DNA of 58,907 nt from NCBI GenBank assembly GCA_003221895.1, contig QHUJ01000130.1:1-58907 (forward strand), in the 5' to 3' direction. Made by a program: the position numbers and the translations under genes. Positions within the stretch are counted from its first letter, which is position 1; each line of letters starts with the position of its first letter. Shown piece by piece: positions 1,607 to 42,879 of the stretch. Below the pieces are notes generated by a model. That model did not search any database and was not told the origin of the DNA. It worked only from the letters and a program-made list of their open reading frames with translations. The DNA is from Gemmatimonadota bacterium. Lineage in GTDB: Bacteria; Gemmatimonadota; Gemmatimonadetes; Gemmatimonadales; GWC2-71-9.

Positions 1607-2278
1607 ATGAACGTCTGGCAAGCCGCCGCCAATTTGATCCGCCAGTCGCGCTCGGGTGCGCTCGCTACAGTGGCGCGCGTGCGCGGATCCACGCCTGTCC
1701 CCGCAGGCACCAAGATGCTCGTCGGGGCCGAAGGGCGATTGATCGGCTCTGTCGGCGGTGGCTGCGTAGAAGCGGATGTCATCGAGGCGGGGCTGCGCGC
1801 CCAAGCTGAGCACCGACCGGCGCTGCTGACGCACCACTTGAACGCCGACCTCGCGGGCGATCTCGGACTCTCCTGTGGCGGAACGGTCGACATTTTTGTC
1901 GAGCCCCTGATGGCAGACGAGGCGTACGTGCGCGTCCTCGAAATCGTTGCCACGGCTGAGTCAGGACTTGTCCGCACCGCAACCGAGTGGGGCGATGGCC
2001 CGGTGAAGACGTTTGAGCCGGTCGCGCTCGGGCGGGGGGCGTCGGGGGGGGGCGCGGCGGCGACGCTCACACGCGACGGTCGCTTCATGGAAGAGCGCCT
2101 GATGCCTGCACCGCGGGTATTCGTGTTCGGGGCAGGGCATGTTGGCACCGCGATCGCGCGAGCGGCCGAGGCCGCGGGCTTTCGCGTGATCGTGATCGAC
2201 GACCGCAGCGAGTACGCCGACCCGGCTCGCTTCTCGGAGGGAACACACGCGACGGTCGCTTCATGGAAGAGCGCCTGA
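1607..2278 (+). CDS. xdhC: XdhC-family protein, N-terminal fragment (frame-shifted by tandem duplication)
   Basis: XdhC-type proteins insert the sulfido ligand/molybdenum cofactor into xanthine dehydrogenase and related molybdenum hydroxylases. This part, 223 aa, has the XdhC_CoxI domain (RGSTPVPAGTKM near residue 27; GSVGGGCVEADV with Cys53), a linker, and the start of the C-terminal Rossmann domain (VFGAGHVGTAIA). Reading then runs into a second copy of a 176-bp repeat in the wrong frame and stops at 2276-2278. Deleting one repeat unit restores a normal 321-aa protein. No xanthine dehydrogenase subunits are in view. The chosen start replaces an upstream GTG at 1541 that would read through the terminator. 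Confidence 0.85.
   Translation: MNVWQAAANLIRQSRSGALATVARVRGSTPVPAGTKMLVGAEGRLIGSVGGGCVEADVIEAGLRAQAEHRPALLTHHLNADLAGDLGLSCGGTVDIFVEPLMADEAYVRVLEIVATAESGLVRTATEWGDGPVKTFEPVALGRGASGGGAAATLTRDGRFMEERLMPAPRVFVFGAGHVGTAIARAAEAAGFRVIVIDDRSEYADPARFSEGTHATVASWKSA
2068..2243 (+). repeat. 176-bp perfect tandem duplication, unit 1
   Basis: Bases 2068-2243 are repeated exactly at 2244-2419, with one further shared C at 2420. The unit begins CACACGCGACGG and ends CTCGGAGGGAA. Its length is not a multiple of three, so the second copy shifts the XdhC reading frame. Confidence 0.95.
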
Positions 2279-2419
2279 TGCCTGCACCGCGGGTATTCGT
2301 GTTCGGGGCAGGGCATGTTGGCACCGCGATCGCGCGAGCGGCCGAGGCCGCGGGCTTTCGCGTGATCGTGATCGACGACCGCAGCGAGTACGCCGACCCG
2401 GCTCGCTTCTCGGAGGGAA
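2244..2419 (+). repeat. 176-bp perfect tandem duplication, unit 2
   Basis: Second, identical copy of 2068-2243. Unit 2 carries the start codon of the C-terminal XdhC fragment at 2263. The absence of any mismatch means the duplication is recent or artefactual. Confidence 0.95.
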
Positions 2420-32470: not shown

Positions 32471-32917
32471 ATGGAGAGTATCCGCGGGCGGTTGACGGTC
32501 TGGTACGCCACCGCCCTGATCGTCAGCATCGCGGTCTTCGCGGTCGTCGTCTACTTAACTCGACGCAGCGCCACGTATCAGGATCTCGATCGCCGCATCC
32601 AATCCGAGGCCGACCTCACCGCGGGCATTCTCGCCGAGAGCTATCGCGCGCGTGGCGTCCTCGTGGAAAAGGACACCGCCGGCCGCCCCGTGCTGACGCC
32701 CGAAGTGGCGGCCGTGCTCGAGGTCGTGCCGGACTTCCTCCTGGTGACGAGCCGCGACGGCCGGCTGCTGTTCGCGTCGCCGGACGCCCGCGCGCTCACG
32801 TTCGCGGAATTCGAGCAGCTCAACGCGATTACCCGGCTTCCCCCCGCTCCCCCCCCCCCCCCCGCTCCCCCCCCCCCCCCCCGCCCCCCCGCTCCCGACT
32901 CGATCAGCTGCTGCTGA
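32471..32917 (+). CDS. Sensor histidine kinase, N-terminal fragment (interrupted at poly-C tracts)
   Basis: 148 codons: first membrane helix (ALIVSIAVFAVVVYL), then a periplasmic sensor region (SYRARGVLVEKDTAGRP, LEVVPDFLLVTSRDGRLL). Translation then runs through tracts of 6, 15, 16 and 7 C separated by GCT or G, encoding a proline-rich stretch, and stops at 32915-32917. The remaining kinase (second helix, HAMP, catalytic part) continues in another frame. A net change of one or two C in the tracts would fuse both into one kinase of about 450 aa. Sequencing error or phase variation; see the finding. Confidence 0.78.
   Translation: MESIRGRLTVWYATALIVSIAVFAVVVYLTRRSATYQDLDRRIQSEADLTAGILAESYRARGVLVEKDTAGRPVLTPEVAAVLEVVPDFLLVTSRDGRLLFASPDARALTFAEFEQLNAITRLPPAPPPPPAPPPPPRPPAPDSISCC
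32838..32897 (+). repeat. Poly-C tract array (6, 15, 16 and 7 C)
   Basis: Four C runs separated by GCT or a single G: 32840-32845, 32849-32863, 32867-32882, 32884-32890. Very slippage-prone. It lies between periplasmic sensor and second membrane helix of a histidine kinase, where the reading frame breaks. Confidence 0.93.
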
Positions 32918-33825
32918 CGATCGTCGCAGCCTTCTTCGTCGGCGTCGTCCCCGCGATTCTGGTCGGCGGGTGGATCGCCGGGCGCGCGCTCGAGCCGGTC
33001 GACCGCATGATCACCGAAGTTCGCGAAATCACCGACGGCCGCAGCCTGCACCGACGCCTCGCCGTCCCGATGGGGCGCGACGAGCTCAGTCGCCTGGCCG
33101 AGACGCTGAATCAGATGATGACGCGCCTCGAGCGCAGTTTCGTGGCGCTGCGTCGCTTCACCGCGGACGCGAGCCACGAGCTGAAAACACCGCTCACGGT
33201 CGTCCGCGCGGGCGTCGAGCGGGCCATCACTCGTCCCGAGGTGCCGCCCGAGACGCTCGCCCCTCTGGAGGAGACCCTGCAGGAAGTGAATCGGATGACC
33301 GAGCTGCTCGACGCGCTCCTGACGCTGGCGCGCGCCGATGAGGGCCGCGCCGAGCTGCATCGGGAAGCGGTCGATCTGCGTGACATCATCGCCGAGGCGG
33401 GCGAGACGGGAGAGCTGCTCGCCGAGCACGCCGGCGTGGGCATGGAGATCCGGCTGCCGCCGCAACCGGTTGTCGTCTCGGTGGACCGCAGCCGCGTGCG
33501 CCAGTTGGCGCTCAATCTCATCGAGAACGCGGTGAAGTACACACCGCGCGGCGGGCAGGTATCGGTGGAGCTCGGCAGCAATGACGGGCGCGCGGTGTTC
33601 ACGGTCGCCGACACCGGCATCGGCATCGCGCCGGGCGACTTACCGAACGTCTTCGATCGCTTCTGGCGGGCCGACTCCGCGCGGACGCGCACGAGTGAGC
33701 GCGCCGGCACCGGCCTCGGTCTCGCCATCTGTAAGTGGATTGCGGAAGCGCACGGCGGCACGATCGAAGTGCAAAGCCGGCCGGGCAGGGGAACGACGTT
33801 TACGGTAGGGTTGCCGCACGGGTAG
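32886..33825 (+). pseudogene. Sensor histidine kinase, C-terminal part (separate frame)
   Basis: The frame from within the C tracts encodes SRLDQLLLTIVAAFFVGVV (second membrane helix), HAMP (VDRMITEVREITDG), the phospho-acceptor ASHELKTPLTVVRAG, N box (LALNLIENAVKYTP), G1 (DTGIGIA) and G2 (GTGLGLAI): a complete catalytic core. The first plausible internal start is ATG at 33007, which would give a soluble kinase without sensor. If the upstream frame is restored it is a canonical HisKA kinase partnered with the upstream OmpR-type regulator. Called broken because the sensor part is in another frame. Confidence 0.75.
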
Positions 33826-42784: not shown

Positions 42785-42879
42785 CACTATCCTCCAGTCT
42801 GGCAGCAACTTAGAAGGTCGCCGCCAGGCTGTCAACCGCGGCTTGCCTAACTCGCAGTCACCCCGCCAATTGGTGGCCC

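Follow-up and report, generated by a model that had tools for sequence, protein, structure and literature searches.

A perfect 176-bp tandem copy within xdhC of a draft Gemmatimonadota genome, probably an artefact at a G-rich tract

XdhC proteins are chaperones of the molybdenum cofactor: they bind it, help to sulfurate it and insert it into enzymes of the xanthine-oxidase family, and in an R. capsulatus xdhC mutant the enzyme is inactive and lacks its cofactor (PMC2997495). Tandem duplications inside genes have a precedent in the pneumococcal capsule genes where, according to Waite et al. (2001, 2003) as they are cited in PMC4022640, they are reversible. In one study of E. coli, microhomology was present at 40 of 40 sequenced amplification junctions (PMC3161906). 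Repeated sequence can also be generated outside the cell, and both duplicate sequence left at joins and the artificial concatenation of identical sequence are described errors of metagenome assembly (Chen et al. 2020, PMC7111523). These systems are all relevant to an xdhC gene found in the window, by which is meant the whole stretch of 58,907 nucleotides that was analysed (contig QHUJ01000130.1 of a Gemmatimonadota bacterium, probably an uncultured one from soil, assembly GCA_003221895.1), where a 176-bp segment of the gene is followed directly by an identical copy of itself.

As assembled, the gene is split on the + strand into two overlapping frames. The first, ORF1 (1607-2278), runs from an ATG at 1607 to a TGA at 2276-2278 and encodes 223 residues, comprising the N-terminal XdhC_CoxI domain (PF02625, E=4.5e-21) with its conserved cysteine motif, the first third of the Rossmann domain (positions 1-44 only of the PF13478 profile) and a tail of about 11 residues that is out of frame. 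The second, ORF2 (2263-2748), starts with an ATG at 2263, terminates with a stop codon ending at 2748 and encodes 161 residues that contain the XdhC_C Rossmann domain complete (PF13478, full profile, E=1.3e-40). When the segment is read once, the frame is uninterrupted over 321 residues and the protein matches the solved XdhC-type structures 2we7/2we8 and 3on5; the two domains of the family lie in one frame solely in this single-copy reading. The initial annotation had named the gene xdhC, placed a second-frame ATG 16 bases before the first-frame stop and held that removal of one copy would give a normal 321-residue XdhC, and these three statements agree with the two domain matches, the 16 bases that ORF1 shares with ORF2 from position 2263 onwards, and the single-copy translation, respectively. 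Upstream of xdhC are two adjacent small cupredoxin-like genes (785-1132 and 1147-1536; halocyanin/amicyanin/plastocyanin), which have weak NCBIfam matches.

The genome contains one XdhC_C locus, with two matches that both come from the duplicated gene, and no further XdhC-type gene was found in it. Seven matches to the domain with which client enzymes bind molybdenum occur in the same genome, and 10 of 10 genomes of the genus have matches to it, 3-8 each, which are domain pieces and not gene counts. An explanation in which XdhC has been lost for want of client enzymes was therefore rejected. Since this is the sole XdhC_C gene found and matches to client enzymes occur across the genus, fixation of a null allele should carry a cost.

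The duplicated unit occupies 2068-2243 (copy 1, corresponding to about codons 154-212 of XdhC) and 2244-2419 (copy 2), both on the + strand. Both TRF and direct string comparison give a match of 176/176, in keeping with the identity reported in the initial annotation, and the matching run extends one base further, to 2420, giving 177 bases in all. As had also been recognised, the unit length is not divisible by three (176 mod 3 = 2), such that the frame is shifted from 2244 onwards. The junction, at 2230-2260 of the window, reads GGAGGGAA up to the join and CACACGCG after it and is free of Ns. Microhomology at the junction amounts to one base only, and inspection of the boundary sequences found no repeat at the unit ends that would have been present before the event. 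Perfect tandem copies with units longer than 53 bp were otherwise absent from 1.21 Mb of the same genome, and there were none in 0.80 Mb of the congeners G002, G007 and G008, and so the duplication is not a product of chance. A perfect 53-bp tandem repeat of 2.4 copies is found elsewhere in the genome (L086, 683-808), with a related copy at 1356-1438. A search with the exact junction gave no match in a collection of genome contigs from which the window's own genome is possibly absent.

Comparison with the closest relatives, which had been proposed as a check, was carried out with the eight congeners that are readable across the site (G001, G002, G003 and G005-G009) and one further family member (G019). 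The segment is single-copy in all of them, and the xdhC frame is uninterrupted in five (G006, G007, G008, G009 and G019). Neither a duplication nor a trace of one was found among the relatives readable at the site, and none of those compared has an xdhC split in the same layout. The duplication is thus private to its own genome among the genomes compared. Pairwise dN/dS over xdhC against four complete congeners is about 0.07-0.14, the same as the values between congeners, and the gene is otherwise under normal purifying selection; any real inactivation would therefore be so recent that it has not yet marked the sequence. Congener G002 has a different lesion, a deletion of about 259 bp in xdhC (L009 about 2088-2109, QHVB01000028.1) that removes residues 35-113 and shifts the frame and that is either real or an assembly error; it lies upstream within the gene and is independent of the duplication in the window. 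Contigs also end inside xdhC in G001, G003 and G005 and in the adjacent anti-sigma gene in G004 (L003, L008, L010, L126). A general fragility of xdhC in the genus was set aside, as these ends fall at different places and the four drafts consist of 340-420 contigs.

What, then, distinguishes this position within the gene? A G-rich tract of the quadruplex type, GGGCGGGGGGCGTCGGGGGGGGG, occupies 23 bases of the + strand at 2030-2052, and copy 1 begins 15 bases beyond it. No such tract was seen at the same place in the aligned relatives. The sampled sequence has 134 quadruplex motifs in 2.43 million strand-bases; at that density, the 20 nt on the 3' side of a same-strand motif would take in a boundary placed at random with a probability of about 0.1%, which becomes about 0.4% when both boundaries and both strands are counted, both figures having been calculated post hoc. 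DNA folding of 2020-2100 gives z = -1.9, a value that carries no information on the point. A polymerase copying the + strand meets the tract after it has copied 2243 to 2068, and therefore a stall at the tract followed by a slip back of 176 bases would yield exactly the product that is observed. The geometry of such a stall is alike in the cell and in a library reaction, and it follows that geometry alone does not tell whether the event is real or artefactual.

The quality of the surrounding sequence also bears on this point. The genome is a draft of 250 contigs with 3% contamination, of which 1.21 Mb was sampled. On the same contig a sensor-kinase gene (HAMP/HisKA/HATPase, 32492-33822) changes frame at 32840-32890, where a C-rich tract (C15, C16 and C7 with GCT) replaces about 51 ordinary codons of congener G008. 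This second frame-breaking anomaly is probably a local error of sequence or assembly. When ORFs of congeners with orthologues in the sampled genome were compared, 257 of 264 were in one frame, and the sensor kinase is among the exceptions. Runs of at least nine G or C occur at 38/Mb in the genome, against 25/Mb in G002, 9/Mb in G008 and 0/Mb in G007, at equal GC content. That two conserved genes are broken at G/C tracts on one contig would point to sequence quality and not to biology. A third frame break, at 42835-42841, was discounted, as the ORF has no Pfam match and is probably no gene. Overlaps between contig ends have been left unmerged in the sampled genome (202 and 489 bp, 97.5-98.2% identical). 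As these two overlaps have no common length, the k-mer of the assembler, which was sought from them, was not recovered; an apparent overlap of 181 bp was dropped because it was absent on BLAST and masked bases had possibly been counted as matches. Where records of congeners were retrieved, they describe Gemmatimonadetes metagenome bins from soil, and the sample names of several match those of a grassland soil study that used 250-bp reads, assembled mostly with IDBA-UD at k up to 200 (Diamond et al. 2019, PMC6784897).

The best explanation of these observations, to which we assign a probability of about 0.6, is that the extra copy arose artificially at the G-rich tract, through local misassembly or in the library; this figure, and the weights expressed in words for the readings that follow, with the remainder left to something else, are judgements and were not computed. 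Under the artefact reading the true gene is an ordinary single-copy XdhC of 321 residues, and its repeated segment would be an error introduced locally in a draft assembled from short reads. While the library was being made or sequenced, the polymerase would have been held up on the G-rich strand, leaving poor or chimeric reads at the tract, and the assembler or gap-closer may then have kept a 176-bp overlap, or walked a false loop, without collapsing it. This reading is favoured because the copy is exact, the junction has a single base of microhomology, the G-rich tract lies alongside, the relatives are single-copy and the contig carries a second frame-breaking anomaly; the standing of the gene as the sole XdhC, its normal constraint, the excess of G/C runs, the proximity of the tract and the unmerged contig-end overlaps were also counted in its favour. 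Against it were counted the lack of Ns at the join, the imperfect identity of the other contig-end overlaps and the possibility that the tract might equally hold up a polymerase inside the cell. A de Bruijn assembler, moreover, requires some reads with the k-mers of the junction, and the event, being unique in 1.21 Mb, is not a systematic artefact of the assembly.

A possible but distinctly less probable reading is that the population sampled really does carry the tandem duplication, as a very recent and transient null allele that inactivates XdhC. Replication would stall at the G-rich tract on the + strand, the nascent end would slip back by 176 bases and the segment would be copied again; the product would be unstable, since the two copies could recombine or slip on each other and one of them be lost. 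The boundary coincides with the point at which a polymerase arriving from the right would stall, the copies are perfectly identical and joined without Ns, junction k-mers usually derive from reads, and nothing in 1.21 Mb suggests a systematic artefact of like kind. Tandem duplications within bacterial ORFs are indeed known, for instance in pneumococcal wchA (PMC4022640). However, the single base of microhomology sits poorly beside the amplification junctions sequenced in one E. coli study, all of which had microhomology (40/40, PMC3161906), and the duplication would leave a genome with client enzymes but no working XdhC, was not seen in the relatives and shares its contig with a second gene broken at a G/C tract.

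A recent event, a switch and an artefact were the options offered by the initial annotation, and while that list holds its members are unequal: an artefact and a transient null allele rank above a switch and a split protein, because the readable relatives are single-copy, selection is normal, a usable Shine-Dalgarno sequence is lacking and the contig has a second anomaly. It is thus more likely that the repeat reflects an error of assembly, or no more than a short-lived mutation, than a biological switch, and we find no support for a switch that has evolved as such or for a split protein that functions. An evolved reversible switch, in which gain and loss at a high rate would turn off XdhC and its dependent molybdenum hydroxylases in part of the population, is very improbable. 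The locus does have one feature of such a contingency locus, namely a tandem copy inside an ORF whose length is not divisible by three, such that loss of one of the perfect copies restores the frame; the spontaneous duplications in pneumococcal capsule genes behave in this way, as Waite et al. (2001, 2003) are cited in PMC4022640, and the G-rich tract could drive repeated events. Recurrence, however, is not seen, there being a single copy and no trace of a second in every readable relative and no G-rich tract at the same place in those aligned; the unit ends had no repeat beforehand, and xdhC does not serve the surface or defence functions that contingency loci commonly have. Least probable of all is a functional split protein, which the initial annotation had considered conceivable and in which ORF2 would be translated by stop/start coupling to ORF1 through their 16-base overlap and the two chains would cooperate, for although the Rossmann domain is complete in ORF2, and ORF1 supplies the N-terminal domain and its conserved cysteine motif, ATG 2263 has no Shine-Dalgarno sequence at usable spacing (the sole GGAGGG ends 21 nt upstream, too distant for normal initiation), ORF1 stops within the Rossmann fold with an out-of-frame tail, and no relative has a split gene of like layout.

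The distinction matters for how the record is used. As given, it would lead annotation pipelines to enter xdhC as a pseudogene or as two separate genes, and would suggest, perhaps wrongly, that this bacterium is unable to mature its molybdenum hydroxylases. If it were both real and polymorphic, the locus would offer a compact test of tandem duplication driven by a G-tract as reversible control of an enzyme class, and if the switch reading were true, replication stalling at the tract would repeatedly create and lose the copy in the only XdhC gene, a single reversible event by which a soil bacterium would shut down all at once its enzymes of the xanthine-oxidase family.

In its single-copy reading the gene has the same two domains and conserved cysteine motif as the XdhC family (R. 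capsulatus XdhC; 2we7/2we8, 3on5), from which it differs in being split as given and in lying apart from molybdenum-hydroxylase genes in the window. With pneumococcal capsule phase variation, as far as it is related in PMC4022640, it has in common an inactivating tandem copy inside an ORF that could be reversed by the loss of one copy; the capsule genes, however, specify a surface structure, whereas the gene of the window encodes a chaperone of cofactor maturation and its duplication is known from one sequence. The likeness to the errors of metagenome assembly (Chen et al. 2020, PMC7111523) comprises identical sequence placed head-to-tail or left unmerged, wrong protein-coding genes and a second anomaly on the contig, with the difference that the join in the window is free of Ns and involves just two copies.
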